IMG/VR virus record: IMGVR_UViG_3300021364_003460
Location: 124,001-188,000 of that record
Source of the DNA: a virus
Reading direction: 5' to 3' (one strand)
Length of the DNA: 64,000 nt
In this document: piece by piece, positions 4,227 through 48,400 of the stretch
Numbering within the stretch: position 1 is the first letter of the stretch
How the letters are laid out: every line of letters begins with the position of its first letter
Notes under the pieces: model-generated
What the model was told of the DNA's origin: nothing
The model's input: the letters and a program-made list of their open reading frames with translations, nothing else
Databases searched by the model: none
Position numbers and translations under genes: made by a program

Positions 4227-7021
4227 ACAACTCCCTTCAGTTTCATAATATAAGGTACTACTTCAGCATTCTGACTACTAAACTCTATCTTTAAAGTTAA
4301 CTTAGTCCTGAGTATTCTAGAAGTATTACCATTGATATCTGTACTTACTGTAGTGGGGTCTAAATCCTTAACTACCCAAGTACCCTTACTCAAGGGAATA
4401 TTGCCATTTACTAACTCTACAGTATCCTCATCTAATTGAATAGCTTGCCAGGTTTCTCCAGCATTAGAGCTAAAGCTAACTGTAATATCAGTACCAGTAG
4501 GTTTATAATAGTCAAACTCTACTTCTACATTTCTATAACCTTTTTTGTAATCTATAGTTCTGCTAACCCAAGTCCCAGTCTTCTTATTCTCTTGAATAGT
4601 AAAGTCAGACTGATTTAGCAACACTATAGGGAACAAGTTAGTAGTCCCACTTAAAACTAACTTAATATCAACTTCACTTCTGTTACCTTCTATTGGCTGA
4701 CTAGAATTAAGAGATAACCAACTACCATTAACATTTCTATAAAAGTATTCTACTCTAGTTGCTTGAGGACAAATAGTTTTAATATTTCTATTAATAAAAT
4801 GAATGTTACCCAGAGGATTACTAATCTTGTAAACTACTTCACTATTGCTAACTGAAGGTACTGCTTGTACTAACTGAAATGTTAAGTCTTTAGATAAATC
4901 CCTTACCCATTGATTCTGTTGTTTAAATAATAGGTCTCCTGCAATTAAAGGCTGCAAATCAGATACAGAGGTAGAATTAATACTTCTTTGACCTGCTTGA
5001 GCATAATAGAATTCTAAAGGCTGCCCATTAGTTAGAGGAGCTATTACTAAAGCATACTGTCCTGTAGATGTTAAAGGTATTGGGATATCAAAGTTAATTG
5101 AACTAAACCTTGTACCATCTGAAGATAAGTTAACATCTACTAATTTTAGTATTCCTTGACCTAATGTCTCTCCAGTAGGTAAATCAGAATTAGCTTTTAC
5201 TACAGAAACCAAAGCTACATTAATATCAGGATTAGTAAACTGAGGTACTCTCCTTAAAGCCAAGTTTACTTTGCTCAACATTAACGGGGCTTCAACAGTA
5301 AAAGTTTGAGCAATACTAGAGTTGTAATCTAGTTTTGTTAACTCACCACCTTTATCTCTAAACAATACATTAGCTGACTGGTTACTGTTAGATACGGTAA
5401 TAGTGTATTGTTTGTAAGATAAGTTAGTTGGCACATTAAAAGTTAATCTAAAGCTGCCATCTTCACTAGCTTTAATAGTGTTAACATTAGTTCCTAAAGT
5501 TCCTTTAAGTAAGTTAAACTCAGTAATCTGAACATTACCAAATACTATTCTTAAATTATCTGCATTAGAGTTAAAACCATAACCCTCTAAAGTTACTAAA
5601 GTAGTTTCTAAAGTAGAAGTAATTACTACATTACTAGGAGTTTGTACTTCTAATTCATAAGAGCTAAAAGGTTCTAATTCTGCTAAAGATTGATATTCTT
5701 TAGTTAATGTATTAGGTCTACCATTAGGAGGATTAACTGTGATAGTAGCTTTAGATGTAGTATCAGTTAAACTAATAAAACCAGTAGCTCTATTTTGCTC
5801 TATTACTATATTCTCACTAAGAATAGGAGTAATAGTGTAAGGTAATCCATTCTTACTATTTACATCTATACCTGTAGAAAGTACCTGAGTCAAGTTACTA
5901 AAGTTAATAGTATTAGAAGTCAGCCCGTTTCTTAGCAAACCATATTTAGGAATTATAGAAGCATTGTAATCTATATTATTAATATCACTATTGTTTAGGT
6001 TAACAAAAGAGTCAGCTATAATACCTAACAAATTAGAATCTTCAAAAGTAAATTTATCTACAGATTGTTTGTTAAGTATATTCTCTAAATAGATTTCTTG
6101 GTTTAACTTATCTCTAGAAAGCAGTAACTTTAAATCTGAGTTAGTTACAGGTCTAGCTTTAGTAGACAGCACTTGAAGTTTACTATCTACTCTTTCTATT
6201 AATCCTAAGAATATAGAATTAAACTTAGAGGTAGGTGCAGCCTTTTCCAATATCAGTCCCCCATAATAAGTTAAATAAACAGAATATTGTACCGTGACTT
6301 CTCTATCTATCTTAAAAGAAGAGGGATAGTATAATTCCACTAATCTACCGTTTATATAGGCTTTCCCAACAGTAATGCTAACTGTATTAATAGAAGTAAT
6401 AGATAATTCTAATCCCTCAGCTACAAAGTCACCAACCTCTTCATATATTCTCTGAGCTAAATAATCAGTAATTAAGGAAGTAATATATTGATTACTATAT
6501 TGTAATGAGTAACCTTCCTCTTTATAGTAAAAAATATGAGGATAATTACTAATAGATTCTCCTTGAACTACAGCTATAGGAAAGCTATCTGCATTTAATA
6601 TAATTTCAGAACTAACTACCAATCTATCTGCTCCTAAGTCTCCACATAACTCACCTCCTGTTAGAGGATCTCTAAACTCAGTAACAGTAGTAAACTTAGG
6701 ATTAATTCCTACATAAGTTCTTTCTCCATATAAAGCTAAAAAAGTAATTTCAGGTATATCTACAAAGTAACCTTTATTCTCAATTCTAATAAACACTTGA
6801 CCTTTAGATAACTTCATTAAGTACCCTTCAGAAGTAAAACTATCTAAAGTAATCTCTAATCCTTTTATAATTCTATAGTTAGAAAATAAGTAATCAAAAG
6901 CTTGAGTGTGCTGGTAATTAATTAAAGATTGTATTTCATTAAACTCAGCAGCTTGAGACTTTTTATCAGGTCTAAATAATATTTTTTGCCAACTATTATC
7001 AAATCTATCAAAATAAGTCAT
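4220..7021 (-). CDS. DUF4815-like tail/baseplate protein (933 aa)
   Basis: The N terminus (FDRFDNSWQKILFRP, then QAAEFNEIQSLINYQ at about 24-38) matches the pattern of DUF4815 phage proteins, which occur in baseplate/fibre regions of cyanophages and related phages. The remainder is long and beta-rich, with repeated Ig-like or jelly-roll-like stretches (for example VTLEGYGFNSNADNLRIVFG and SSIAQTFTVEAPLMLSKVNL). It ends with a domain (WVSRTIDYKKGYRNVEVEFDYY, then SKGTWVVKDLDPTT) that recurs at the end of the 1,466-residue neighbour. It is the last gene of the leftward structural operon and most likely part of a host-contact or fibre-network structure. The exact position in the virion is unknown. 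Confidence 0.65.
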   Translation of the reverse strand: MTYFDRFDNSWQKILFRPDKKSQAAEFNEIQSLINYQHTQAFDYLFSNYRIIKGLEITLDSFTSEGYLMKLSKGQVFIRIENKGYFVDIPEITFLALYGERTYVGINPKFTTVTEFRDPLTGGELCGDLGADRLVVSSEIILNADSFPIAVVQGESISNYPHIFYYKEEGYSLQYSNQYITSLITDYLAQRIYEEVGDFVAEGLELSITSINTVSITVGKAYINGRLVELYYPSSFKIDREVTVQYSVYLTYYGGLILEKAAPTSKFNSIFLGLIERVDSKLQVLSTKARPVTNSDLKLLLSRDKLNQEIYLENILNKQSVDKFTFEDSNLLGIIADSFVNLNNSDINNIDYNASIIPKYGLLRNGLTSNTINFSNLTQVLSTGIDVNSKNGLPYTITPILSENIVIEQNRATGFISLTDTTSKATITVNPPNGRPNTLTKEYQSLAELEPFSSYELEVQTPSNVVITSTLETTLVTLEGYGFNSNADNLRIVFGNVQITEFNLLKGTLGTNVNTIKASEDGSFRLTFNVPTNLSYKQYTITVSNSNQSANVLFRDKGGELTKLDYNSSIAQTFTVEAPLMLSKVNLALRRVPQFTNPDINVALVSVVKANSDLPTGETLGQGILKLVDVNLSSDGTRFSSINFDIPIPLTSTGQYALVIAPLTNGQPLEFYYAQAGQRSINSTSVSDLQPLIAGDLLFKQQNQWVRDLSKDLTFQLVQAVPSVSNSEVVYKISNPLGNIHFINRNIKTICPQATRVEYFYRNVNGSWLSLNSSQPIEGNRSEVDIKLVLSGTTNLFPIVLLNQSDFTIQENKKTGTWVSRTIDYKKGYRNVEVEFDYYKPTGTDITVSFSSNAGETWQAIQLDEDTVELVNGNIPLSKGTWVVKDLDPTTVSTDINGNTSRILRTKLTLKIEFSSQNAEVVPYIMKLKGVVY

Positions 7022-7028
7022 ATCTACC

Positions 7029-10000
7029 TCAAGCTACATAAGTTTTAATATTGAGTACATTAGGTTGAATAGCTAAATTATCTGTAGTAAACTCTACTCT
7101 CCATCTAAATCTATTTCTACCATCTCCATTACTCATATATAAAGTTTCATTAGATAGCTTCCAAGTAGCTTGCTTGATCTGTAAACCAGCATCTATAAAC
7201 TTATCAGTAGTAGTATCTTTAGTTAACTCAAACCATTCTTGCCCTTGAATAGGTAATCCCTCATTAGGGCTGTAGTAAGCTTTAATATCTGTTCCAGCAG
7301 GTTGTAAGTAATCTAAAGTCACGTACACATCTTTATATAATCTGTTGTAAGTAGTTTGATTAGAGATTATATGAGAACTAGCTAACCCTACGTACAAACT
7401 AACTGAAGATCCTTGAAGCACCAATGCAGGAGAAACATTATCTCTTAATGAAGACAACTTAGCTCTAATAGCTACATTAGTTACAGGGTTGTCCAAGCAT
7501 ACTAACCTATTAGAATCAAAGTTAATCCAAGTGTTAGTTCCAATAAGTTGATATTGGTATTGAAGGAAAGTATCTGAAGGAAGTATGTCCCTACTATTTA
7601 AACAGAAAGAAGTAACATAACTTAAATTATCTACTACACCATAGTTGCCTAAATCAACAATTACTTCATTAGCGATAGTAAAAGTAGCTTTTTGTAATTC
7701 ATAAGTTAAGTCTTCTCTTTCTAACCTATTGAGAGACTTACCCTCATTAGAATAGAATAATTCTCCTTCTAGATAAAGTTGGTCTCCTACTGATCCTCCA
7801 GTAAGTAAATCAGTACCAGCAACTTCAGCACTAAATATTTCATACCCGCTACCTTTAGAGTAAAGACTAATATTATAAAGTTTATTGGGGTTTATTAATA
7901 TAGGATAACTAAAAGTAAACTCAGTCCAGTTAGTGCCATCTGTAGAAGGTTGATACAGATTACTAAAAGCACTAGAGTAATAACTTCTATTAGGGGCTTT
8001 GTCTACTAAATCAGATTCACCCAAATTAACTATTAAGTCTTCATTTAGATCAATAGAATTTAACTTTAGTTTTACCTTAGTTAAATAACAATAATCATAT
8101 ACTTTAAAAGTCTGATAAATAGAGTCAAACAGTATAGGGAACTGTTGTTCTGTAGTTAAAGAAGTTAAACTGACATTAGGTAACGTACCTGGATTAACTA
8201 TACTACTGCTAAATTGAAAAGCTTGAGAATCATATTTACTAGACTTTAGTTTTAGTAAGAAAGAATCAGCTATAGGTTTATTAAATGAAATATCCCAATT
8301 CTCTAAAGCAGAAATAACTATCTGACTAAATAAGTTATTGTAGACTCCTATTTGAGTTTTAGCATAACCTTTACTGCCAGTTGGAGCTACTGATATAATT
8401 TCTAAGCTATGAGAACCAAAGACTAAATCAGTGGGTATATTAAAGCTAAAAGAAATAGTACCATCACTTTTACTTCTTATACTACCTGGATACTCTACTG
8501 ATAAAGGTGTACTGTCTAATAAAGTGTAGTTTCTTATCTCTGTCCCAGATAAGTATACTTTATAACCACCATTGTTAGGAGGTAATCCTTCTACTTTTAT
8601 CTTAATTAAGTTAGTATTAGATTTAACTAAGTTAGAAATATATCCAAGGAAACTAATTGTATTTTGAAATATATTTCCTACAGGAGTACCCTCTATAAAA
8701 GACTTATATAATTTCTCTCCAAAAGATTTAAATAATACTTGGTTGTTAGTAGATATTTTTTGAAGTATTAAAGGTTTATTTTCAGAAAGTCTAGTAAGTA
8801 GAGTAGTGGCTTTTGCTAATGGGTCACAAGAAGTAAACTTGCTAAAAGGTTTATTGTTAAATATTAATTCAGGATAAGCAGTAATTTTGGCTCTTTTATT
8901 AATATTTACTTGAGGAGAAACTGCTCTAGTTTTAGTTAATCTATTTTGAGATAATAGTACAGAGTTAGAGTAAGGTAATGTTACAAAGTAGTTGTCTCCA
9001 AACTCATTCTCACTTATTGTGCCTCCAGATACATATTTTAAGCTAACGTCTTTGTGGGTATAACCTCCAGTGAGTGATTGTATAGCAGGAGAGATAGCGC
9101 CTGTACTATTATCTAAATCTACTTTAGATAAGTCTTGAAGAGAAGTATTGTAGTAACCTATCGGAGTGACTTCATTATCAGCAGCATCTAATTGAGCAGC
9201 TACATCTAATCTTTGGTTTTCTAACTCACAAGTATTCTTTTTAACTAACTCTACAATACCTTGAATCTCTTCATTTCTTAGTATCTTACAATCAGAAGGA
9301 GTTACTTCAGTAGAGTTAGCATATAGTTTAAAAGTAGCTAATGGTAATAAATTAGTGGCTACAACAGGTAATTCAGCTACACCAGAAGAAGATAAAGTGT
9401 AGTTTAAATTACCTTCTTTATCTAAAGTTATTACCCCTACTTTAGAAAGATAATAAGTGTAGTCTACATAAAACCTCTGATTAGGAGCAGGAGTAGTATT
9501 AATAAATTCAATAGAGTCAGTGGCTTGATTTAGTTGATAATCAGTTCCTTTTGCTAAAGGTTGAGTATATAGAAAAGACACATAATAAGTGGTTCCAGCA
9601 GCAGGTTCATTAGCACTTACAGAACTAAGAGACCAATCTATTTCAGATTGATTAACTAATTGATAATCCACTCCCTCTACATAAGTAGTATCTCCTTGAA
9701 ATACTTTAACTATTCTAAATATAGAGTCATCTCCTAACTTGTCTGATGTTCCCGGAGTAACTCCCCTGACAATAGGTTTATTGTATTCAGCTAACTCAGC
9801 AGTAACATTAACTATATCTGCTACTGGTCTAAATCCTAGTTGATAAGAGTTAGAGCTGCCTGCTCCTGATAAATTAGCAGAATTAACATCTACTAATAAA
9901 ACTTCAGAGTCTCCTATAACTATATTATTTTCATCTCTTTCTTCAATAGTTATATTAAGTTCTATCTGATTAGCTACTTCATTTAAAGTTGTAGAAGTAA

Positions 10001-11429
10001 TCTCTAAAGCCGTACCCACTCTATCTATAACTAAGTTATTTTTAATAATAGTTCTTAATACTTCACTACTTAATATTACAGTAGTAGAGCTAATAACTAT
10101 AGAACTTAGAGCTTGGTTAATAGGTTTATTAATTTCTGTAGTTATAAAGTCAAGTAGACTCTCTACACTATCAAAATTACTATTCTCTAGAGCTAACTCA
10201 AGTTTGATATCTACAAATTGTTGGTTATATAAAAGTTTAGTAAACTCAATTGTTAGTAAAGTGTTTTGATTAACTACATCAGCCCATAAAGAGCTATCTT
10301 CTAAACTAAAAGTTCTTAAAGTAGTAGCTTGATCACCAGCATAAGTAAAAATGGCTCCATTGACTCTACTAACTTCTAGGCTTTTAGGTACTTCTAATAC
10401 TACTGGAGATAATATAGGAACTCTATAACCTTCTACATAAGCAACTCCAGGAGATATAGAAAAGTAAACTTTATCAGTAAGTAGACTCCTAGCACTAATT
10501 AAAGATTGTTCAGCTTTGTCTGAAATTAGTTTCTTACTTGTGTACAACCTAGATAACTCATTATATCTAGCTGTAATATCTTCTAATCTTGATTCTAAAT
10601 CTTGTAGTGCAATTAAATTAGAGTTAGTTGGAGTTCTATTGTAAAGTAAAGTAGTAGCTTGAACTTGAGAAGTTAAGTTATCTAAAGAAGCCTTAGCATT
10701 CAATACTTGGGAATAGACATCCTGAGTTTCATTAACTAAGTTAGCAGTATTTTCTTGTAGAGCATTATACTTAGCTACATCTGTAACTGCTCTTTCACTA
10801 GCTTCAATAACAGATATTTCTAAACCTCCAGGTAAACAAAAGTTGCCTGTTCTAGCATAAGTATAGTTAGCTAGTGATTCATCTATTTTAGAGTAAATGT
10901 TAGTTTCTTTTTGTATTAAACCTCCGTTGACTACTCTAGCTAAAGTAAAAGCAGAAGCATTGTCTATTACTAAAGTAGTATTCCAAATTAATCTAGCTGC
11001 ACCAGGTAATCCATATAAGGCTCCTCCTTTAACAGGATCTCTTAAGCTAGGTACTTCCTCTTCAGTAATAATAGAAGGAACAATAGATAAACCTATGTTA
11101 AACTCTCCAGTATTATTAACTGTAATAGTTTGTCCTGGTACATCTAGTACAATGCCATCTACATAAAACTTACCAGAAGACATAGTAAACTCACTCTCAT
11201 CTTCTGTTTTAGATAGCAATTCAAATTTGAGTCCATAGATAACAGAACCATTAGCAAACAAAGTATCAAGACCTTGTTTCATAAAATCCTGCATTAGTGA
11301 CTGCATTTCTATTAACTCAGCAGTTTGCAGAGGTCTTCCATGATTAAATAATAACTTTATCCAACCTGTCTCTCTTGTGTATCTATCTCTATAATCACCA
11401 GAATTAAAGTTATATAAATTAGTTGTCAT
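7029..11429 (-). CDS. DUF4815-like large tail/fibre protein (1,466 aa)
   Basis: It starts with the same arrangement as its smaller neighbour (WIKLLFNHGRPLQTAELIEMQ at about 23-43), a DUF4815-type signature. At about 215-310 lies a charged helical stretch suited to a coiled coil (NETQDVYSQVLNAKASLDNL, then LQDLESRLEDITARYNELSRL). Long beta-rich repeats follow. The C-terminal 200 residues resemble the end of the 933-residue protein (YNRLYKDVYVTLDYLQPAGTDIK, then FRWRVEFTT). The two genes are 7 nt apart and look like a diverged pair. Probable virion component at the baseplate periphery or in long tail fibres. Confidence 0.65.
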   Translation of the reverse strand: MTTNLYNFNSGDYRDRYTRETGWIKLLFNHGRPLQTAELIEMQSLMQDFMKQGLDTLFANGSVIYGLKFELLSKTEDESEFTMSSGKFYVDGIVLDVPGQTITVNNTGEFNIGLSIVPSIITEEEVPSLRDPVKGGALYGLPGAARLIWNTTLVIDNASAFTLARVVNGGLIQKETNIYSKIDESLANYTYARTGNFCLPGGLEISVIEASERAVTDVAKYNALQENTANLVNETQDVYSQVLNAKASLDNLTSQVQATTLLYNRTPTNSNLIALQDLESRLEDITARYNELSRLYTSKKLISDKAEQSLISARSLLTDKVYFSISPGVAYVEGYRVPILSPVVLEVPKSLEVSRVNGAIFTYAGDQATTLRTFSLEDSSLWADVVNQNTLLTIEFTKLLYNQQFVDIKLELALENSNFDSVESLLDFITTEINKPINQALSSIVISSTTVILSSEVLRTIIKNNLVIDRVGTALEITSTTLNEVANQIELNITIEERDENNIVIGDSEVLLVDVNSANLSGAGSSNSYQLGFRPVADIVNVTAELAEYNKPIVRGVTPGTSDKLGDDSIFRIVKVFQGDTTYVEGVDYQLVNQSEIDWSLSSVSANEPAAGTTYYVSFLYTQPLAKGTDYQLNQATDSIEFINTTPAPNQRFYVDYTYYLSKVGVITLDKEGNLNYTLSSSGVAELPVVATNLLPLATFKLYANSTEVTPSDCKILRNEEIQGIVELVKKNTCELENQRLDVAAQLDAADNEVTPIGYYNTSLQDLSKVDLDNSTGAISPAIQSLTGGYTHKDVSLKYVSGGTISENEFGDNYFVTLPYSNSVLLSQNRLTKTRAVSPQVNINKRAKITAYPELIFNNKPFSKFTSCDPLAKATTLLTRLSENKPLILQKISTNNQVLFKSFGEKLYKSFIEGTPVGNIFQNTISFLGYISNLVKSNTNLIKIKVEGLPPNNGGYKVYLSGTEIRNYTLLDSTPLSVEYPGSIRSKSDGTISFSFNIPTDLVFGSHSLEIISVAPTGSKGYAKTQIGVYNNLFSQIVISALENWDISFNKPIADSFLLKLKSSKYDSQAFQFSSSIVNPGTLPNVSLTSLTTEQQFPILFDSIYQTFKVYDYCYLTKVKLKLNSIDLNEDLIVNLGESDLVDKAPNRSYYSSAFSNLYQPSTDGTNWTEFTFSYPILINPNKLYNISLYSKGSGYEIFSAEVAGTDLLTGGSVGDQLYLEGELFYSNEGKSLNRLEREDLTYELQKATFTIANEVIVDLGNYGVVDNLSYVTSFCLNSRDILPSDTFLQYQYQLIGTNTWINFDSNRLVCLDNPVTNVAIRAKLSSLRDNVSPALVLQGSSVSLYVGLASSHIISNQTTYNRLYKDVYVTLDYLQPAGTDIKAYYSPNEGLPIQGQEWFELTKDTTTDKFIDAGLQIKQATWKLSNETLYMSNGDGRNRFRWRVEFTTDNLAIQPNVLNIKTYVA

Positions 11430-24380: not shown

Positions 24381-25730
24381 TTAGAATTTAATATAGTTGG
24401 CTGGGTTTACTGCACCTTTACCATTTAAGCGTATCTCATAGTGGATATGCGCTCCTAAACTTGATCCCGAATTACCTATTCTACCTATCATTTGACCTTG
24501 TTTTACACTTTGACCTTGAGATACCAAGCTAGAACTTAAATGAGCATATAAAGTATGTGAACCTTGATGTCTTAAATAAATAATGTTTCCATATCCTCCA
24601 AAACCTGAAGTACCACATCCACTACCTTTGAAACCATTAACAGGACAACTGGTATGTACTCTTTCTACTATTCCATCAGCAGAAGCATAAATGGGAGTTC
24701 CTATAGAAGCAGCTAAATCTACTCCTCTGTGCATTCTTCCCCATCTTGGACCATAAGGTGAAATAAATCTGTAAGTACCTTTCTTCATAGGATTAATGAA
24801 TCCACCAGGCTTTAACTCACCTTTATAAGGTTCACTAATACCAGCAGCCTGATTGTTAACTGATTGATTAGGTTGATTATTAATAGCATTTACTCCAGGA
24901 GCAGCAGCCCCGCTACCTAACCCATTACCAAAGATAGGATTAGCAGTCTTCTGTAAACAACCTGGATAGATAATTCTATCTTGCTGAGTGTAAGGAGGTG
25001 GTGGACAATTCTGACCTGTAAGTAAAGCAGACTGTATACCTGAACTTAGAGTAGCTAATCCATTAGAAATAACTGAAGCAGCATCTTGAGCTAGAGAACC
25101 TACTTGGTTAGCTGCATTAATAGTAGTATTAGCTAAGTCTCCTAATACAGAGCTGCCTAACACTTGCTGAGTCTTAATGTCCATTCCTCTAGATGCAGAG
25201 TTAGCTGACCAATAGCCTCCTCCAGTTCTTCTTTTTAATCTAGGGTCATAATCAGTATACAAAAAAGAAGCTTGGGCAGTAGGCATCTTAGAATCTCTAT
25301 TTAATCTACCAGCAGCTATATCTAAGTATCTAGCAGGCAGAATGTTTAACAACATTAATTCACCCTGAGTTTGAGGCTTTCTTTTAGCTTGTTTTAGCCA
25401 ATAAGAAAGATGAGTTCTATCCCATATCTCTAGTTGTTTAGCAGGTCCAGCATTTTTAAACCCCTCAAAGCCCCCAACCTCAGCTATTCCTCCATTGGAA
25501 AGAATACTACTAACTGATCTACAAGCTTGTACAACCCCTACACAAGTACCACTATCTCTTCTAGCATTAAACCCTTCAGCTTCTACCATAACCATTTTAA
25601 CTATCCATTCTTCAGCTATTCCATGTTTAGCTGATATAGATTTAATAGTTTTCTTAACTTTTTCACCTTCAGCAGCATCTATATATTTTTTTCTAATACT
25701 GTCTTCAACTGCTCTATCTAATAAACTCAT
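24381..25730 (-). CDS. tail-associated lysin: transglycosylase-like + M23 endopeptidase
   Basis: The C-terminal domain (about 305-449) is a peptidase M23 of the lysostaphin type, which cuts peptide bonds in peptidoglycan. It has HRGVD (H334, D338), YAHL (H397) and GAHIHYE (H428, H430), the expected zinc and catalytic residues. The N-terminal 190 residues look like a lysozyme/SLT-like domain: KMVMVEAEGFN with E50 or E52 as candidate catalytic Glu, then GVVQACRSV, and TYDP-like FLYTDYDPRLKRR. A Gly/Ala/Asn-rich linker joins them. An insertion with paired cysteines (SCPVNGFKGSGCG) lies inside the M23 fold. There is no signal peptide, which fits a virion-borne enzyme. It lies in the baseplate cluster near the amidase and the VanY-type spike. 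Confidence 0.85.
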   Translation of the reverse strand: MSLLDRAVEDSIRKKYIDAAEGEKVKKTIKSISAKHGIAEEWIVKMVMVEAEGFNARRDSGTCVGVVQACRSVSSILSNGGIAEVGGFEGFKNAGPAKQLEIWDRTHLSYWLKQAKRKPQTQGELMLLNILPARYLDIAAGRLNRDSKMPTAQASFLYTDYDPRLKRRTGGGYWSANSASRGMDIKTQQVLGSSVLGDLANTTINAANQVGSLAQDAASVISNGLATLSSGIQSALLTGQNCPPPPYTQQDRIIYPGCLQKTANPIFGNGLGSGAAAPGVNAINNQPNQSVNNQAAGISEPYKGELKPGGFINPMKKGTYRFISPYGPRWGRMHRGVDLAASIGTPIYASADGIVERVHTSCPVNGFKGSGCGTSGFGGYGNIIYLRHQGSHTLYAHLSSSLVSQGQSVKQGQMIGRIGNSGSSLGAHIHYEIRLNGKGAVNPANYIKF

Positions 25731-25799
25731 ATACTAAAAATACCTCTATACAGTTAATTATATAAAGGTATCTTTAGTATATGTTTAATAAGTGAGTTG

Positions 25800-26216
25800 T
25801 TAGCTAATTACTACCATTCCTAATTTTAACTGTTCTATAGGAAACTTAGTTATATCTATTTCTCCTACACCTTCTAATTTAGGTAACTTATATGTTGCTC
25901 CAACTAAATCAAAGTTAGTATCTGTGGCAGGCATATAAGTATAGTCAATTAAGCATCTTATTATCTGATAGTTAGTATTCTCTAAATTATATTCAAGATT
26001 AATACACCTACGTCTGCTTACATAATTTTGTCTACTTCTACTATACTCTTGTTTAATAAAACTACTGTATATAAAACCGTCTTCTAATAAAAAAGCAGTT
26101 TGAAGCTCTCCATTTAAGTAATCTATATTAGGGCAATTTAAATATTTAAAATAAATAGTAGCTTTATCAAAACTTCCTATTATTTCTGAATTACATATTA
26201 AGTTAATTTTATTCAT
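25800..26216 (-). CDS. hypothetical protein (138 aa)
   Basis: An upstream in-frame ATG exists at 26315, but it would overlap the amidase gene by over 100 nt. The Met at 26216 (MNKINLICNSEIIGSFDK) overlaps that gene's stop by only 8 nt and is preferred. The product is beta-rich with a basic central stretch (QEYSRSRQNYVSRRRC) and ends VGEIDITKFPIEQLKLGM. No family is recognised. The coupling to the amidase suggests a virion or lysis accessory protein. Confidence 0.5.
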   Translation of the reverse strand: MNKINLICNSEIIGSFDKATIYFKYLNCPNIDYLNGELQTAFLLEDGFIYSSFIKQEYSRSRQNYVSRRRCINLEYNLENTNYQIIRCLIDYTYMPATDTNFDLVGATYKLPKLEGVGEIDITKFPIEQLKLGMVVIS

Positions 26217-26685
26217 TCTCAATAGCAAAAAAGATTTCTTTAGTTTTAGGATAACTATTCCATAACTTCTCAAACTTAGCTCTATCAAAACTTCTGGGGT
26301 CTTGTCTGCTTCCACTTAGGTCAATATCTTTATGTAAAACTATTCTATCTAAAGATATCCCAGTTTTAGCAGTTAACCAAGCTAAAGAATAATACTGTAA
26401 ATTAGTATATCCAGAGTGGTCAGTCACTTCTGGAATACTATCTAAAGGGGATTCTAAAGCTATATGATAAGCAAACTCATCTACAGAGTTATCAATAGAT
26501 TCTCCATTAAAAGAAGCATTATTACCAGCTTTAGCTATTTCATCCGGAGGTATTAAATAGGTTATTTCTCCAGATAAAGAGATGATAACATGGTAAGAAA
26601 TTGTATTAGGATTAGCTTGGATTATCTTAATTGCTTCTTCTTTAGAAGATATAGTCTCATGAATAACTATAATTGGTTTATACAT
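26209..26685 (-). CDS. N-acetylmuramoyl-L-alanine amidase (Amidase_2/PGRP fold)
   Basis: The enzyme cleaves the bond between N-acetylmuramic acid and L-alanine in peptidoglycan. Visible features: IVIHET with zinc ligand H9; SYHVIISLSGEITYLIP, the usual core strand and hairpin; FAYHIALES; and VLHKDIDLSGSRQDPRSFD with H118 and D129 at the other zinc-ligand positions. The 158-residue length is that of a single-domain T7-lysozyme-like amidase. There is no signal peptide or binding domain. It overlaps the spike gene by 8 nt, so it may be virion-associated rather than a free endolysin; either is possible. Confidence 0.85.
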   Translation of the reverse strand: MYKPIIVIHETISSKEEAIKIIQANPNTISYHVIISLSGEITYLIPPDEIAKAGNNASFNGESIDNSVDEFAYHIALESPLDSIPEVTDHSGYTNLQYYSLAWLTAKTGISLDRIVLHKDIDLSGSRQDPRSFDRAKFEKLWNSYPKTKEIFFAIENE

Positions 26686-28990
26686 CTTTAGAGTTCTTAA
26701 TAAAATTAATAATATCTTGAGTTGCTTTAGATATTACAGATTTAGCAGTAGGATTAAAATTAGTTCCATTAATATTAGTAAACATAGATATTATGTAAGA
26801 CTTGTTATTAATACTAACTAAACCTGCGTTTCCAGTAACTTGAGTAGTAAAACCAGCTTTATTAGCTATTGCATTACTATAATTAAACTTATAAATATTA
26901 GTTTCTAAAGCATTTCTAACTACAGAAGTACCTGTTCTAGTAGAAGAGTAAATTTTATTTAAAGCAGTTGATATATCTGTAACTGTTGATTTATTATTAC
27001 CTGGGTTTCTTTTATCAGCAGACATGTTTAAGTAATTTACAAATCTAGTAGAAGAATAACCACTTAATAGATTATTTATCTGGTTTAACCCTCCTAAATT
27101 TTTTATCAACATATTAGTTTCTAAATTTGTAGAGTTCTTTAACATTTGAATTAAACAGTTTTCTACAGTTATAGATGTTCCTAAATTACCTCCTTCTACA
27201 GGAATTACATCTTCTGTTATATGAAGTAAAGTAGATAAACTTAAATTTCCACTTTGTAATTTATCTAAAATTAAATCAGCTACTATTAACTTAATAGTAG
27301 AAGCTGGTGTTAAAGGAGAACTATTAACATCAACACCATAAAAATTACTATTTGTTTTTACTCCTATAGAGTGTAAATTATATTTGGTTTTTATCTGTTG
27401 TAAAAATATATTAAAATCTGAATTAGGATTACTAGTAGTTGATAAGTTTTGAGAAGTAGAGCAAAACAAAGTATCCTTAGCTTTCTGATTACCTACAAAC
27501 CTCCAATGCCAAGGCTCATAATCAATACCCTCTGAGTTACCTTTAAAATAGCTTAATTCTAAACCAAATTTAGTTGCATTCTTCTGAATAAACTTAAAAG
27601 CATCTGTTTGTTCAAAGGATTGATTAAGATTCTTTTTATCCAATCCATCATCTAAGTCCATAGCATATCCTGTATGGTGTTCACTAAAACCAGGTTTTGC
27701 ATTGACTTTAAATATTTGGGAGTCTGATTGACCTTCTTTTCTTTTTCTATTTATAATAGCTTGTTGGTCAGTAATACTTCTAAAACCAGAAACTAATATA
27801 ATTTTAATGCCTTCTTTTTGAGCAGCTTTCTTTAAGTCAACAAAAGCTTTTGCAGCATCAGGATGTAACTTAACTCCATTCTCTACTTGAATTAGCTGAG
27901 TAGCATCTTTATATTTACATCCTCTAGGTTTAGTATTTACAGGGACTTTCTCTTCTTTAGGTTTATAGTCAGGTTTATTTTGCTGCCCTTCTACATACTG
28001 CTCCCCTTGAGGTAACTCACTACCTAAAGCAGCTTGCATTTGTAATCCTACTAATTGTCTAGCTGCATCTCCTCTATTACAAGCCTGAGCTTGCTCTAAA
28101 TACATCTGAGCTAACTTTTTATATTGGTCTATAAAATATGAGTTAGGAAAAGGACTTCTTAAACTAGACTGACTTTTAACATTACTTTGTTTACTAACTA
28201 TAGGTTTTATTCCTGTAGTCTTTTTAGCTTCTTCTGGTGTAGTTTCTTTAATGATAGAAGTCTGAGCTAACAAGTCAGCTTGTCTATTATAATAATTAGC
28301 AAAGTCAACCAATTTAGCACATTTACTTTCAGCAGTACCCTCAGCTACATTAATAATATTAGCAGTGTAATTGATAATAGAATTAAAAGCATAGTTTACT
28401 TTATCTCCTACAGAAGTGGCTAAGTCTATAATCCCAGGTTGTCTATTAGCTTTAGCCTTGTCTTCTAAATTATCTGTAAACTCAGGAGAAGTAAAACTAT
28501 CATATAGATTGTTAGTTCCATATAAGTTGATAGTAGCTGCTGGGTCAGTAATCCTATTTGGATGACCTGAAGGTTGTTGAATTTCATATAACTGATTACT
28601 GTATTCTTCTAATTGAGCAAACTCTTGTAACTTACCTTCTTGATAGTATTTATCATAATTACCCTCAGTGTAAATAACTCCAGTAATAAACACTTCATCC
28701 CAACTACCATTAGCACAACTTAAAGAAACTAGAGTACCTTCATCTAAAGGAGCATATCTACCAACTCCATTAAAACCCCCTGTAGGAGATATATATTTAC
28801 ACCCTAAGAATAATGACCCTGTTTCTAATTCCTGTACATCATAAACCTGAGCTAAATGGTTCTCTCTACTTACGTTAACTATAGTTCCTTGCTTAACTAT
28901 AGGGGTGTTAGAGTTGTTTCCTCTGTAAACATTATTAAGAGCATTATTCCAAGTGTAAGTATCATTAGGATTATATATTTGATCTAACAT
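26678..28990 (-). CDS. tail spike/hub protein with VanY-type M15 peptidase and class-A beta-lactamase-like domains
   Basis: Three parts are visible in 770 residues. (1) Residues 30-110 resemble the OB-fold of gp5/VgrG-type spikes (GTIVNVSRENHLAQVYDV, then LDEGTLVSLSCANGSWDEV). (2) Residues about 355-500 form a D,D-carboxypeptidase of the VanY/M15 type: SGFRS at 401-405, SEHHTGYAMD with H438 and D445, and EPWHWRF with E492 and H495. (3) Residues about 520-765 match the class-A beta-lactamase/transpeptidase serine-hydrolase fold: SxxK at S564-K567 (PASTIKL), an SxN motif at S620-N622 (KNSTNLETN), and a KxG motif at K711-G713 (NKAGFTTQ). No clear omega-loop Glu is visible, so true beta-lactamase turnover is doubtful; a peptidoglycan DD-peptidase or binding role is likelier. 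The gene lies downstream of the hub gene in the late operon, as expected for a tail spike. Confidence 0.85.
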   Translation of the reverse strand: MLDQIYNPNDTYTWNNALNNVYRGNNSNTPIVKQGTIVNVSRENHLAQVYDVQELETGSLFLGCKYISPTGGFNGVGRYAPLDEGTLVSLSCANGSWDEVFITGVIYTEGNYDKYYQEGKLQEFAQLEEYSNQLYEIQQPSGHPNRITDPAATINLYGTNNLYDSFTSPEFTDNLEDKAKANRQPGIIDLATSVGDKVNYAFNSIINYTANIINVAEGTAESKCAKLVDFANYYNRQADLLAQTSIIKETTPEEAKKTTGIKPIVSKQSNVKSQSSLRSPFPNSYFIDQYKKLAQMYLEQAQACNRGDAARQLVGLQMQAALGSELPQGEQYVEGQQNKPDYKPKEEKVPVNTKPRGCKYKDATQLIQVENGVKLHPDAAKAFVDLKKAAQKEGIKIILVSGFRSITDQQAIINRKRKEGQSDSQIFKVNAKPGFSEHHTGYAMDLDDGLDKKNLNQSFEQTDAFKFIQKNATKFGLELSYFKGNSEGIDYEPWHWRFVGNQKAKDTLFCSTSQNLSTTSNPNSDFNIFLQQIKTKYNLHSIGVKTNSNFYGVDVNSSPLTPASTIKLIVADLILDKLQSGNLSLSTLLHITEDVIPVEGGNLGTSITVENCLIQMLKNSTNLETNMLIKNLGGLNQINNLLSGYSSTRFVNYLNMSADKRNPGNNKSTVTDISTALNKIYSSTRTGTSVVRNALETNIYKFNYSNAIANKAGFTTQVTGNAGLVSINNKSYIISMFTNINGTNFNPTAKSVISKATQDIINFIKNSKDV

Positions 28991-29032: not shown

Positions 29033-30874
29033 CTAGACATCTGAAACAGAAAGTAGCTGGGTTACAAAGCCTTTATCACCTTGAGCAGTCAGTCTATGCT
29101 GCACTACTCTAACTGTGTAGTAAGGAAGAATAAGATTGTTAATATCAGAAGGTAATCTGTTCACACTATTGATAGTATCATTAACAAATTTAGAAGCAAC
29201 AAGATTAGCTTCACCTCTTTGGTCTTGAGGTAAGTCTTTTACTGTAGCAGCTACTTTTTTAATCTCATCTCCTCTCTTAGTTTCTGTAAAGTTAACAGCA
29301 TCAGCTTTACTATCTACTACAGTATACGTCTTAAAATCATGCAAGAAAGTATTGTAAACTCTGATAGCTTCACCTGGACAGAAAGTAGGGTCCCCTACTA
29401 CTGACATTTCTATACCTTGAGTATCTCTACTCCAGACTCTAGCATTAGCTAAAGCAATAAGTAATGCACCATACTCTTGGTTAGGATAGGTAGCTAAACC
29501 CCCATCATAGATAATCTGTGTTTTACAAGGTGGAGCTACTGACCTATTAGCTAACTTAGGGTCTAATACAGAGTAGCCAAACCTTAGTGAGCCTATTAAT
29601 GAAGTTGCAGATCCTTTAGTAGTAGAGCTGTCTACAATTACAAAGTTATTAAAACTAAACAATGAAGAGCTAACCACTCTCATAGATTGAATCATTGCAT
29701 TGAAACTAGGCGGTTTAACATCAGGTACATCTTTAGGATAAGTTCTATGGAAGTAAGTTCTATATTGTCTGTCTACATCATCAAACCCTGATTCATCTTT
29801 CACTCTTGGACCTAATATAAAATCTCCATTAATGTGACTAGCAAAGAAATCCATAGGTCTCTCTTCAGTCTTAGCTATGTAATCTACTATCTCTAATGGA
29901 GTTTTATTAAGAACTTGTAAACTAGCTTTAGGTTCACCTTTAACTATAGGAGGTTTCTCTACCCAAGTATTAAATCTAGGTTTGGCTCGGTCATTCATTA
30001 TTCTACAAGTAGCAGTCTGAATCCAAGCTGCTGGATCTTGTTGAGGAAACTGTAAGTTAGTCTGTTCATTTTGTATAGTAAAACCTTTAACAGACATTCC
30101 TCTCTCAATCAGTCTCCAACATCTAGCCTTAGTTAAGTTTTCTCCAAAAGGATTACCACTAGCAGCATTAGCTAATTGTAATAAGATTTCTGTTCTATCT
30201 CCACTAGCTAACCCTGATAAAGTAGCTTCATTAGCAGCAGCCTCTTGATTAAGTGCATCTTTGTTAACTTTGCCTTGGAATGCTTTAAGACTAAGAACTC
30301 TAGTATCAGCAAAAACTCTAGTTCTATCTCTACATTGGAGAGTTACTTTAAAACCTTGAGGGTTGGCATCATAAGTAATGTTATCTATAAATCCCCAAAA
30401 GATAGGGCAAAGTGGTTTATCTGGATTGTGAGTTACTTCTTTATTACTATTATTAATATCAGTAAAGTTAAAAGGTACTTCATCTAGTAAGTCAGCAGTA
30501 ATAGGAGTAGTTGAAGAAGATACATAACCTGCATATATTCTTATTTCATCTTCTCTATCTAAGTAAGGATAATCACCTCCTCTATACAACTTTACATCAG
30601 GTAAAGAAGGTAGGAACATAGCAGTGTCAGGTAACTCACAAGTTAATGTTATCTGTGCTCGACTAGTTCCCCAATCTCTAGTTAAGTTAACAATAATTTC
30701 TTTAAGAGTCCACTCTAACTTAACTTTTTTCTTTTCATTAGGATTCTCTGGGTTAATGTAATCCCCTTTATCCCCAAAGTGATTAGTAAATAGAATAGGT
30801 TGGGTATTAGACTCTGCTGTAGCTAATGTGATTGCAGCAGCAGGAGTAGCAGCTTCAGGTGAGTATATTTTCAT
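29033..30874 (-). CDS. baseplate hub protein, gp27/gpD-like (613 aa)
   Basis: It resembles hub proteins of the late-control D / T4 gp27 group that link the tube to the spike. The N-terminal third has the usual strand-rich pattern: WTLKEIIVNLTRDWGTSRAQITL, then REDEIRIYAGYV, and FWGFIDNITYDANPQGFKVT with QCRDRTRVFADTRV. The central TPLEIVDYIAKTEERPMDFF and the C-terminal FCPGEAIRVYNTFLHDFKTYTVVDS are also typical. It sits between the tube gene and the spike/peptidase gene, the standard order. Residues 1-60 include an Ala-rich opening that may be flexible. Confidence 0.75.
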   Translation of the reverse strand: MKIYSPEAATPAAAITLATAESNTQPILFTNHFGDKGDYINPENPNEKKKVKLEWTLKEIIVNLTRDWGTSRAQITLTCELPDTAMFLPSLPDVKLYRGGDYPYLDREDEIRIYAGYVSSSTTPITADLLDEVPFNFTDINNSNKEVTHNPDKPLCPIFWGFIDNITYDANPQGFKVTLQCRDRTRVFADTRVLSLKAFQGKVNKDALNQEAAANEATLSGLASGDRTEILLQLANAASGNPFGENLTKARCWRLIERGMSVKGFTIQNEQTNLQFPQQDPAAWIQTATCRIMNDRAKPRFNTWVEKPPIVKGEPKASLQVLNKTPLEIVDYIAKTEERPMDFFASHINGDFILGPRVKDESGFDDVDRQYRTYFHRTYPKDVPDVKPPSFNAMIQSMRVVSSSLFSFNNFVIVDSSTTKGSATSLIGSLRFGYSVLDPKLANRSVAPPCKTQIIYDGGLATYPNQEYGALLIALANARVWSRDTQGIEMSVVGDPTFCPGEAIRVYNTFLHDFKTYTVVDSKADAVNFTETKRGDEIKKVAATVKDLPQDQRGEANLVASKFVNDTINSVNRLPSDINNLILPYYTVRVVQHRLTAQGDKGFVTQLLSVSDV

Positions 30875-31721: not shown

Positions 31722-33956
31722 TTAAATACCTTGAGAAGCTAATCCATCATCATTATTTCTAATAATAGATATCTCAATTTCTCTGATTGAATATAGAGGT
31801 AAGAATCTGAAGCTTACATTGAGTTGTCCTAATGTATAAAGTCCAGGTGGATTATTTTCATTACCTACTAAAACACTGCTGTAATTAGCTATTTTTCCTT
31901 CTATAGAAAGCTGTCTTAAGTATTGCTCCACAGCTACTTGAACCTGACTTCTTACTCTTAAAGTATGAGTTTCCCCAATATAGAAAGAAAGAACATCATA
32001 TAAATCTTGTCTGATAGCGTCATAGCTTCTTCTAATATAGATATACTCCCAAGCAGGATCAGAAGTAAGAGTTCTACCTGTAGTAAATAAAAACGCTTGA
32101 GTAGCAGGATCTACATGAAGGACTTCTAACTTAGCATCTGTGTATAATTGCAATGCTGTAGAACTAGAGTTTCTAAAAGTATCTACTTCAGTAATATTTC
32201 TAACTGAACCAGCAGTTCTTCTAGCATTAGGAGATACATAAAAAGGAATAGCTGCAAGTACACCAGCATACAGAGCATCAGGAGACAAACCAAATCTAGG
32301 TGCATTAGGTTGACCAGCATAGGTAGCCCAACCAGCAACTTTAACCCCTCTTTGACTATTCAAACCTACAGTTTCTTGTTTAGCAGCATTAGGAGATAGG
32401 TTAGGTCTAGCATTTAAGATTGCCACCCTTAAACCATCTTTGTCTTTAGCTTTCTCACAATGAGTAATAAGAGCTTGCTGAATAGCAGCACTAAACTTAC
32501 CTGGAGTTAATACAATGTGAACTGGATAAGCTTCTAAAGCATTGATAGCTTTAATATAGTCATCATCAGTTACAGAAGGACCATCATAACCATCTTCAAG
32601 TGATACATCTAGTAACTTAGAAGGTCCATAGTAATCTACATGTCTAATGTCATCTACATCAGTTACAGTTACATCAGCAGGAGCCAATCTAACAGGAGAC
32701 TGGTTAACTAGGTTAACCTCATAACCTACGGGGTCTACAAACTTAGGTAAGAAAATACCTTTAATATAGATAGATTCAGATAACTGATTTAGTAATCCAT
32801 CTTTGTCTAAATCATTAAAGTTAAGTACATAAGATTCTGTACCTAATCTAGGGTTAAAGTTTCCAGCATTTAAGTCTGATACTTCTAACCTAAAAGAGTT
32901 TTGTGAATCTGGATATAAATTAACTCTAATATTATTACCATAGTCTCCAACATAATTAGCTTGAAGTCTAAGTAAAGGAGTACCGTTAATAGAATAAAAA
33001 TCTCTATAAGCTACTCTTGCACCATCTTCACCTCCAGACATAAATACAGCATTAGCTGAAGTTAAAGCAGGTGTAGTTGTAATACCAGGACTAACTGTAT
33101 CTAGTAACTCAAAGTAATAGCTAAATCTATTACCAATAGTACCTACAATATCAGTTTGATTACTATCTAATTCAAAGACAACTCCATTGTTAGCATCATT
33201 AAGAATTATCTCTTCTAATACTTCTAAACCTGAGACTGCACTAATAAAATTAGTAGCTATTTGATAAGGAATATCATTTTCATTAATAGGAATTGTAAAT
33301 ATATAAGAGTTAACTCTAACTTTAAATTCATCATCTTCAACTAGAGCTAAATCATTAGTTTGACCTACTTGACCAAAAGTAACTTCTACACCATTTGCTA
33401 CTGTCTGAGTAATACCCTTGTCAGCAGTTAAGTCAACTGTAATGTTATCTGTTACAGTAGCCCAATCAATAGTTTCATCTTCACCTAGTACAATAAATTT
33501 ATAATTAATAGTAGCAACATTAGTAGTAATGTCAGTTACTTTAAAAAAGTATCTACCACTAACTGAGCCAGTATATTTTCCAGATGTTACTATTACTTCC
33601 TCAATGTTAGTAACTTCTTGAGGTAAGCCAATAAACTTAAGATTAAAGTAAAGTGTGTTTGCTTTGGTTGCTACACCAGTAAAACTAACTTGACCTTTAG
33701 CTGGTGTAGCATTACCTAATACTCTTACACAAAGAAAGTCTTCTGCCCCTTGGTCTCTAGCAGCCTGATATGCAAGTGAACCTATTGAAGTATCATATCC
33801 ATAGTTGTTAGCAAAAAAGCTATCTCCAGTAATGAAAGTTGGAGTAGTAGACCCTCTGCTAAAAGTAGAAACAATTCCAATTCTATTTCTAATATTCTGC
33901 CTTATAGGAGTAAAACCAACATTATTCTCTATAAAGCTAATGGAGGGAATTCTCAT
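31722..33956 (-). CDS. tail sheath protein (744 aa)
   Basis: The N terminus (PSISFIENNVGFTPIRQNIR, then NNYGYDTSIGSLAYQAARDQG) and the conserved C-terminal sheath fold (WEYIYIRRSYDAIRQDL, then ETHTLRVRSQVQVAVEQYLR and SFRFLPLYSIREIEISI) identify the contractile sheath. A large beta-rich insertion (about 100-330) makes it longer than T4 gp18, suggesting extra surface domains on the tail. The leader is A/T-rich without a ribosome binding site. The tube gene follows after 22 nt. Confidence 0.92.
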   Translation of the reverse strand: MRIPSISFIENNVGFTPIRQNIRNRIGIVSTFSRGSTTPTFITGDSFFANNYGYDTSIGSLAYQAARDQGAEDFLCVRVLGNATPAKGQVSFTGVATKANTLYFNLKFIGLPQEVTNIEEVIVTSGKYTGSVSGRYFFKVTDITTNVATINYKFIVLGEDETIDWATVTDNITVDLTADKGITQTVANGVEVTFGQVGQTNDLALVEDDEFKVRVNSYIFTIPINENDIPYQIATNFISAVSGLEVLEEIILNDANNGVVFELDSNQTDIVGTIGNRFSYYFELLDTVSPGITTTPALTSANAVFMSGGEDGARVAYRDFYSINGTPLLRLQANYVGDYGNNIRVNLYPDSQNSFRLEVSDLNAGNFNPRLGTESYVLNFNDLDKDGLLNQLSESIYIKGIFLPKFVDPVGYEVNLVNQSPVRLAPADVTVTDVDDIRHVDYYGPSKLLDVSLEDGYDGPSVTDDDYIKAINALEAYPVHIVLTPGKFSAAIQQALITHCEKAKDKDGLRVAILNARPNLSPNAAKQETVGLNSQRGVKVAGWATYAGQPNAPRFGLSPDALYAGVLAAIPFYVSPNARRTAGSVRNITEVDTFRNSSSTALQLYTDAKLEVLHVDPATQAFLFTTGRTLTSDPAWEYIYIRRSYDAIRQDLYDVLSFYIGETHTLRVRSQVQVAVEQYLRQLSIEGKIANYSSVLVGNENNPPGLYTLGQLNVSFRFLPLYSIREIEISIIRNNDDGLASQGI

Positions 33957-45468: not shown

Positions 45469-48400
45469 ATGCAAGAACCATATAATTTTGAAGGGATATT
45501 TAAAAGTAGAGACAATGATAGTAAACCTAGCTTTCTAAGAGATGTAGTTAGGTTACACACTCATAACTCTATGGAAGGTAATAAAGACTTTATCTTAGAT
45601 AGGGAAGACCAGTTTGAAGGTTTCTTTTCTAAGAACTTTCAAGACCAAATAGAACAAAGAAGTAGAAACTTAGATTACAACAATAGAGAAAGGCTGACTA
45701 GAGAAGCTGTCTTTGAGCATGCTAATTACAGTTTTACAAGTAAACTACTTAACAATGCTAATGGAGTTATGGGAAGAATGTTTGCTTCTTTTGAGACTCC
45801 TAACTTGTTTGATGACTCTGATGAAAGTGAAAGGTTTGGTAGGGAGACTTTACATGAGTTTCTTAATATACTAAAAGAGCCTGATGATATTAGAGAAAAG
45901 AGAATTAAAGAAAGTGTAGCCCCCAAACCTATAGCTGAAATGAACTATAAGTTTGATAACTACATTAACAGTAATATTGAGAATGCTGAAAATGCTAGTA
46001 GACATATCAATAAAGATATTAGAGACTTTACTAATAGAGTTAATGCTCAAGACAGTATTATCAACTATTTTACTAAAGGAGGACAAACTAGGTCTGTTAA
46101 GTTACTAGATAATGTTGGATACATCAACAGACCTGGTATTCTGCCTGCTATAAGTATGATTCATGATGCTGAGAGTGAGTTATCTATTAATATCTTCCAG
46201 CTACAAAACAAACCTATTATTGACTATCTAACTTCTGACTTAGTTAACAGAGCAGAAGAGATTAGAAAACAAAGAAGACAGGGTGTTCAAGTTGATAACT
46301 TTAAATTCAGACTACAATTAGCTTGGAATGAAGAGTTAGCTAATGATGCTGCTGGTTACAATATCCTTGGACCTAACTTAACTGCTATTAGAACCTTTCA
46401 GAACTTAGCAACTAAGTATGCTGATGCTTTAGATATTACTGTGCAAACACTAGATAGAAGAAATCATACTAAATTAATATTCAGTGACCAAGGGGCTTAT
46501 ATCTCTACACAAAACCAAACTGCTCCTGTAGGTAAGTCACTGTATCAAGCTGGTAGTAACTATGAATCAGGTAGGTATGTTAGAAATCTACAGATTACTC
46601 AAGATAGTACAGTTAGTGAAAGAGGTGAAGCTAAACTCTACCAACAGGTAAAAGAGTTGCAAACTAAAATGTTTGGGCAGCAAAAGCTACTGCAAACTAA
46701 TCAACCTAACATTAGTGGACCTGTAGAAACCTATGAGATGATGAGGTCTTCTTTAGATTACCTACAAAAGAATAAAGGTAAAGGAGTTAAAGCAGACTTT
46801 ATATTAGACCAAGTATTTCTCCTTCAATATGACAGTATGTTGTTTGATAAAGTTGCTGAAGGAGAAATGGGTCCTGAGTCTAAAGGTACTATAAAGAGAG
46901 TAATAACAGACTTAGATAAAAAGAAAGCTAAATATAGAGCTGATATACAAGAACCTTTAATGCTGGCTCTTATAGAAGGTAACGCTCATGTTACTACTGA
47001 TGTTAGAAATTTTAAGCAAAATGTTCAAGAACCTATCTATACAGAGTTAATGAAATTAGATAGCTTTAGAGACAGTGGCTATAACTTAGATACCTTCTTA
47101 AATGATGATATATCTTTACCTACTGAAGAGAGAATTAGACGAGTAGAGGCTAAAGTAGGTAGTAGAAGTAGAGCTATCCAATTGTTAGCTATGACTTCTG
47201 GTAATATCCAAACAGCTAATGTACCAAGGCAGCACGTTAAAGCCAGTTTACTATACAGAACAAGTCCTAATGGTATTGAAGGTATAGCTGGTGAACTAAG
47301 CAGTTCTAACAGAGGTTTATACTCTATGTCATTAGTAGATAGTGACTTTGAAAGAGATATGACTAACAATGAGTTAGGTATGATGTTCTACTCAGAAGAC
47401 TTTGCTAAGGGACTTAAAGTGACTAAGCAAAGTCCTTACTCTTTAGAAAGTAATGAGGTTACTGAAGAGTTACAGGAATACACTAAACATTACATTTCTA
47501 TGAAGTCTGATTTGTCTACAAGAAGAGTAGGTCAACTTGAGTATAGTAATGTTAACAACAGAGCTGAGTGGGAAAAGGATGTAGATAGAAAGAAACTAGC
47601 AAACTTGTTTGATAGCTTAAATGAGATGAACAAGTCTACTGGTGGAGATGCTATGAAAATTAGCTATGACTATGATAGCAAAGGTCCTATTTCAATCTTA
47701 GTTGACTTAAACAATGGCTTAAAGTATAGGTTTACTGCATTACAAGGTGGAGTTAATAACCAAGGTTTTATCTATGAAATTAACAAGTCTAAAGTAATAG
47801 GTGAATCTGACTTTATTAACCAAAGTTCAGAAAGTATTAGAACTAGCTTTACTGATAATGGTAATCCTTTGTTTATAAAAGCAGGTGAGAGGTTAACTCT
47901 AACTCCTATACAAACTACTATGTCTATGATTAGTAGTATTAGTTTAGAGGCTTCTCAAATAAGGTTAATCAGAGCACCCTTAATAGAATACCAAACTCAT
48001 TATGCTCCAGGTGCAGAAGGTAGTGATAATTTTGATGCTGGTATCTCAAGGTATTTGTTAGCTTTATCTGGTTATAGTGATAGAGGTGTTACTGATGTAC
48101 TTAGCATTGACCAAGGTTCTATTATCAAAGGTGCATTAGAGAACTTACAACTAAGGATGCGTAATAGTGATGCTACCTTAGATAAAGTTAGACAGTTTGC
48201 TGGTATAGATATTAATAATGAAGATAGACAAGCTAAACTACAATATCTAACTGATTTGATTCAAGTCTTTGGTAGTGTAAATGCTAATGATAGAAGACTG
48301 CTAATTACTGGAGAAGGCTTAGATGGCAGACAGAGTTTAAAGAGATTTATGTCTTCTCTGTTTAGCAGCCATGAGTATGCTGATGTACTTTATGACTTTA

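Follow-up and report, generated by a model that had tools for sequence, protein, structure and literature searches.

The protein encoded at positions 26678-28990 on the minus strand of the analysed window (64,000 nucleotides, part of a 190,865-base IMG/VR virus record) is best explained as the baseplate injector, or tail spike, of a cyanophage akin to Ma-LMM01. The C-terminal slot of this spike would carry an M15 peptidase together with a virion-borne PBP-A-like DD-peptidase, and the two would loosen the host wall locally at injection. On the strength of sequence comparison and a structure model, this explanation as a whole is given a probability of about 0.62. The architecture, the fold, the catalytic residues, the gene neighbourhood, the modularity and the purifying selection on the domain family were all seen directly.

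The spike gene and its neighbours

The open reading frame starts with ATG, encodes 770 amino acids and lies exactly where the earlier note on this DNA had placed it. The residues named in that note for the M15 and the serine-hydrolase sites were all found under the same numbers. The ORF, Pfam and PHROG results gave the order N-terminal baseplate or stalk part, M15 peptidase and PBP-A/class-A-like domain. The stalk (residues 32-306; 28073-28897, minus strand) matched the PHROG baseplate protein family phrog_30576 with an E value of 3.3e-33 and is 28-29% identical to the baseplate protein of Ma-LMM01/MaMV-DC. Two marks of a gpV/gp5-type spike were found, namely homology to phage baseplate proteins and a place after the sheath and hub genes.

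The earlier note had described an OB-like domain in this part of the protein. The baseplate assignment stood, but an OB fold is at most suggested for a stretch at about residues 64-108 inside the stalk (minus strand). There Phage_base_V (PF04717) stayed below its cut-off in homologues (E about 0.001-0.002), and the profile matched VgrG (2p5z) over the same stretch with an E value of only 0.87. A full-length AlphaFold2 model of the 770 residues, made from a 22-row alignment, was too poor to give the domain arrangement or an OB fold (pLDDT 50, pTM 0.38).

The zinc peptidase domain of the M15B, VanY type (residues 374-500; 27491-27871, minus strand) scored 136.5 bits against VanY PF02557 (cut-off 25, E 6e-40) and matched YodJ (4ox3) with an E value of 6.8e-19. 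H438 and D445 lie within SEHHTGYAMD, and E492 and H495 within YEPWHW. With PF02557 above its gathering score and the HxxxxxxD, E and H residues in place, the domain is predicted to be an M15B (VanY) metallopeptidase; the curated cut-offs of the NCBIfam VanXY, VanY and LdcB models were missed. It is followed by the class-A-like or PBP-A-like serine-hydrolase domain (residues 553-738; 26777-27334, minus strand), for which Pfam, the model and Foldseek agreed. The presence of both domains on a spike or baseplate protein, as first noticed from the letters alone, was borne out by Pfam scores far beyond chance.

The tail genes are arranged in the order sheath, conserved gene (probably the tube), large hub-like gene, spike, amidase and M23, as in the Microcoleus phage My-WqHQDG; Ma-LMM01 has the same order minus the amidase gene. 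The tail is contractile, because a tail sheath gene is present (31722-33956, minus strand; phrog_30392, E 1.5e-182). Its protein shares 43% identity with the sheath of Ma-LMM01-type Microcystis phages and 42% with the My-WqHQDG sheath. The gene directly before the spike (29033-30874, minus strand) matched phrog_34291, a family of no assigned function, with an E value of 2e-86 and occupies the same place in My-WqHQDG and Ma-LMM01. It is probably the baseplate hub; this assignment, like that of the tube, was made by position.

Downstream, an N-acetylmuramoyl-L-alanine amidase gene of 158 codons (26209-26685, minus strand; Amidase_2, PF01510, 43.6 bits) overlaps the spike stop with its start. The M23 endopeptidase gene of the same tail-tip block (24381-25730, minus strand; PF01551, 92.3 bits) encodes 449 amino acids. 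Between them lies a hypothetical ORF (25800-26315, minus strand) with no Pfam or PHROG family, which is absent in locus L122, where the amidase is joined directly to the M23 region. The N-domain of the window's M23 protein was not recognised and by eye resembles that of locus L137, and the M23 gene of L003 (5670-6854) has a GH24 lysozyme N-domain. An inverted repeat of 28 nt without a loop (25728-25783, 86% complementary) is located at the start of the M23 gene. It is 95% conserved in L122 though the surrounding genes have changed, and could be a terminator, a regulatory hairpin or a recombination site. An ORF of 3674 codons (45469-56493, plus strand) runs opposite to the tail genes.

The record also holds nblA (54326-54466 in record numbering), a phycobilisome-degradation gene of cyanobacteria, the presence of which points to a phycobilisome-bearing cyanobacterium as the host. 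No psbA was found in the record.

Modules at the spike C-terminus

The C-terminus of the spike serves as an exchangeable slot for modules that act on peptidoglycan, since the same stalk bears different wall-acting C-termini in relatives. In the window it carries M15 and the PBP-A-like domain. In L137 it ends with M15 alone and is followed by an amidase-like ORF of the same length and an M23-like gene, and in L014 and My-WqHQDG it ends with the PBP-A-like domain alone. L003 and L122 have Amidase_2 in this position, a homologue of the separate amidase of the window fused to the spike, and the Fukuivirus members Ma-LMM01 and MaMV-DC have a degenerate Amidase_3-like domain. This use of the slot for wall-acting modules is the strongest argument for a function of the unusual PBP-A-like domain. 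It had been proposed in the earlier note that the two enzymes of the window may work in sequence. A need for this found no support; the two domains may work as a pair but need not, since either of them occurs alone.

Over 5604 nt the loci L121 and L122 share 99.93% identity, and they then split abruptly at spike codon 341 into M15 and Amidase_2, respectively. This switch falls in the linker, which in the window comprises residues 307-355 (27926-28072, minus strand). The L121 contig stops within M15, so domains beyond M15 are not visible there. The pair (L121 5604/L122 8023; IMG/VR 3300027805_000822 and 3300042914_001846) marks a very recent module swap in the spike gene. In L137, two ORFs that by eye resemble HNH-type homing endonucleases (5027-5932 and 9431-10060) flank the spike region and are possible drivers of mosaicism.

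The PBP-A-like domain and its relatives

Residues 553-738 matched Beta-lactamase2 (PF13354) with 74.2 bits (cut-off 22, E 1e-20). The structure prediction that had been suggested as a check on the class A fold was carried out with AlphaFold2 for residues 511-770, using an alignment of 47 sequences from which annotated-phage rows were left out. It gave a confident class A fold with a mean pLDDT of 90.3 and a pTM of 0.89. When this model was compared with the PDB by Foldseek, PBP-A came first (E 1.3e-13, TM 0.80) and the class A beta-lactamases were all behind; PBP-A was also the top class-A-fold match in the PDB by sequence.

The serine-hydrolase motifs read S564-T-I-K567 (ASTIK), S620-T-N622 (STN) and K711-A-G713 (KAG). 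Compared with SDN the Ser and Asn are kept and the Asp is replaced by Thr, and KTG has become KAG; these two substitutions were absent from the earlier account. In the 47 aligned sequences, including the window, columns S54, K57, S110, N112 and K201 (S564, K567, S620, N622 and K711) are invariant. The lack of an omega-loop Glu could be confirmed by alignment with PBP-A, which has Leu158 there: the window has no Glu between T648 and N666. A DD-peptidase-type rather than an antibiotic-hydrolysing site, as the note had preferred, is supported by sequence and model, because the nearest fold, PBP-A, likewise has no omega-loop Glu and the NCBIfam model bla_class_A was missed.

Of the features of class A beta-lactamases the domain thus has Ser70-x-x-Lys73, but neither the SDN loop nor omega-loop Glu166, and its score of 33 bits against NF033103 (bla_class_A) did not reach the cut-off of 200. 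As to a PBP-A-type enzyme, a class A fold without the omega-loop Glu is present, the K-T/S-G motif is not, and the domain does not branch within the cyanobacterial PBP-A clade.

Scanning IMG/VR with a two-row and a seven-row profile revealed 31 loci with a PBP-A-like domain. In 30 of these, all except L014, the domain lay in long ORFs, many of which ended at contig ends. Five of the six different long ORFs scanned also matched a tape-measure family, several with M23 or GH24 lysozyme domains. Spikes holding the domain are three in number (the window, My-WqHQDG and L014). A search of genome contigs with the single window domain as query gave no match; with the seven-row profile, cyanobacterial PBP-A and the tape measure of a Tolypothrix prophage were found. 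Among the tape-measure ORFs with PBP-A-like domains (L010-L013 and L015-L040), one near-identical group occurs in about 25 contigs. TEM beta-lactamases on phages P1 and P7 were also among the matches and were discarded as transposon resistance cargo, not virion modules.

In the tree, the phage domains of spikes and tape measures formed one clade (100/100) and cyanobacterial PBP-A stood apart (99/98); this separation is settled, but the deep order is not, given a long connecting branch and rows drawn with a phage profile. By sequence, the phage domains make up a clade of their own of long standing. At the KTG position its other members read KIG, KID or KVG, so that with KAG in the window the Thr/Ser, which normally holds the substrate carboxylate, is lost throughout the clade. 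My-WqHQDG (L007 8857-10815) has also lost the Lys of this motif (E-V-T) and retained the Ser, the Lys and SxN. As the Lys column is invariant in the 47-sequence alignment, this loss is confined to My-WqHQDG, the domain of which may have turned from an enzyme into a binder.

The domain family is under purifying selection. In spikes and tape-measure proteins the domain gave dN/dS values of 0.12-0.20, from pairs that do not include the window domain, which is without a close relative. Between My-WqHQDG and L014 dN/dS was 0.20, which is purifying despite the lost Lys.

Proposed function and alternatives

PBP-A is both a DD-carboxypeptidase and a DD-endopeptidase, and differs from beta-lactamases chiefly by having no omega-loop Glu (PMC11189452). 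For the spike, contraction of the sheath would push the protein past the outer membrane and into the wall, where D-Ala4 of a stem peptide or a 4-3 cross-link would acylate Ser564; hydrolysis would follow, the domain acting as a DD-endopeptidase or DD-carboxypeptidase like PBP-A. The M15B metallopeptidase would trim or cut stem peptides and, along with the Amidase_2 and M23 proteins encoded separately, might cut other bonds of the same mesh; a carboxypeptidase-type M15 alone would not open it. The net outcome would be a wall that is locally loosened at the injection point, with cross-links eased while the spike crosses. The tip position of the modules, catalytic activity of both domains and the exact bonds cut are inferred from domains and gene position.

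The invariant catalytic residues, the PBP-A fold, the wall-enzyme neighbours, the use of the slot and the selection on the family support a peptidase. This reading is weakest where the phage clade lacks the KTG hydroxyl, a loss that could mean a preference for cross-links, slower catalysis or binding only. The STN and KAG changes and the Lys loss in My-WqHQDG are compatible with weak catalysis or a binding role. A possible though less probable explanation is therefore that the domain is a peptidoglycan-binding anchor or a slow covalent trap, which recognises D-Ala ends and holds the spike while M15, amidase and M23 cut. The clade-wide hydroxyl loss and the change from SDN to STN in the window fit such an anchor, as does My-WqHQDG, where the domain is still conserved at a dN/dS of 0.20 with the KTG Lys fully gone. 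Penicillin-type acyl-enzymes would, moreover, be expected to be long-lived without the omega-loop Glu, as in PBP-A. However, PBP-A turns over peptides despite the missing Glu (PMC11189452), pure binding does not require the Ser, Lys, Ser, Asn and Lys that are invariant in the window and 46 other sequences, and the relatives have enzymes in the slot. A bolder idea, which we consider unlikely, is that the phage-only clade, lacking the KTG hydroxyl, has given up the usual D-Ala-D-Ala carboxypeptidase chemistry and serves as a grapple bound covalently to the wall or as an endopeptidase specific for cross-links. If the grapple were true, the spike would bond to host stem peptides during injection, and penicillin or changes in the composition of the stem peptides would block infection.

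It is improbable that the domain is a degenerate passenger, namely a PBP-A-like domain taken from a host by recombination, unneeded and now decaying. The altered SDN and KTG motifs, the absence of the domain from relatives and the highly mosaic slot would agree with decay, but the reading frame is intact, the model is well folded, the catalytic residues are retained and the long-standing phage clade (100/100) is under purifying selection. A beta-lactamase that shields host or phage against beta-lactams has hardly any likelihood at all. The PF13354 match and the class A fold would suit it, whereas the missing omega-loop Glu, the low bla_class_A score, the fusion behind M15 within a virion spike and a nearest fold that is a DD-peptidase do not. 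The PBP-A-like peptidase that would loosen the wall at injection is preferred.

Comparison with known systems

Wall enzymes are common on phage tails. To our knowledge, the peptidoglycan hydrolases of virions are nearly all glycosidases, amidases or metallo- or cysteine peptidases. In phage TM4, a wall hydrolase motif in the tape measure aids the infection of stationary cells (PMC1796659). Gp39 of mycobacteriophage Omega, a virion protein by mass spectrometry, has a beta-lactamase-like DD-carboxypeptidase motif that is reportedly common to many phages (PMC3706429). The beta-lactamase fold on the spike had been called unusual in the earlier note; this holds for a spike of a contractile tail, where the fold is rare, but not for the kind of domain, as Omega gp39 offers a precedent and many tape-measure proteins carry the very domain.

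Tail-borne beta-lactamase-like domains and the database label 'beta-lactamase enzyme family protein' on the My-WqHQDG protein are already known. As far as literature searches show, the PBP-A-like phage clade, the placement on a contractile-tail spike beside M15 and the evidence for swapping are new; no paper describing a PBP-A-like domain in the spike or the tape measure of a cyanophage, My-WqHQDG included, was found in a search that mostly did not extend to subscription journals. A penicillin-binding-type serine DD-peptidase fold is a standing phage module in both spikes and tape measures, and forms a phage branch of the class A beta-lactamase fold without Glu166 and without the KTG hydroxyl. 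The L121/L122 pair shows that these phages exchange their wall-cutting kit within short times, perhaps tracking the wall chemistry of the host.

Like the window protein, Omega gp39 carries a beta-lactamase-like domain in a virion protein, probably at the tail tip (PMC3706429). Unlike it, gp39 is a minor tail protein of a siphovirus and has an FnIII motif, and it is likened here by its published description, not by a family match. Gp26 of Gordonia phage Neville, an actinobacterial phage (L136 4486-11319), has PF13354 in a tape measure with KTG intact, whereas the window spike reads KAG; its class-A-like domain has no clear omega-loop Glu. The cyanophage tape-measure proteins of L010-L013, L016 and L035 share PF13354 and the clade with the window, and some adjoin M23 or GH24. 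Their domains read KIG or KID and belong to a tape measure instead of a spike.

The spikes of My-WqHQDG (WOL31302.1) and L014 have the same stalk and the same PBP-A-like domain as the window, in sheath-bearing cyanophages with amidase and M23 genes downstream. They differ by having no M15, and their PBP-A-like domains are 27% identical to that of the window. The baseplate protein of Ma-LMM01 and MaMV-DC shares the homologous stalk and the gene order, but its C-terminus has neither M15 nor a PBP-A-like domain. The M15B carboxypeptidases VanY, YodJ and LdcB share PF02557 and the full set of metal and catalytic residues with the window, in which this domain is a phage spike module. PBP-A itself (Tll2115 of Thermosynechococcus elongatus; PDB 2j7v, 2j8y and 2j9o) has, like the window domain, SxxK, SxN, KxG and a short omega region without the Glu; its motifs are SDN and KTG, compared with STN and KAG on the spike. 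PBP-A is made by the host and anchored by an N-terminal transmembrane segment (PMC11189452), whereas the domain of the window is carried on a phage spike.
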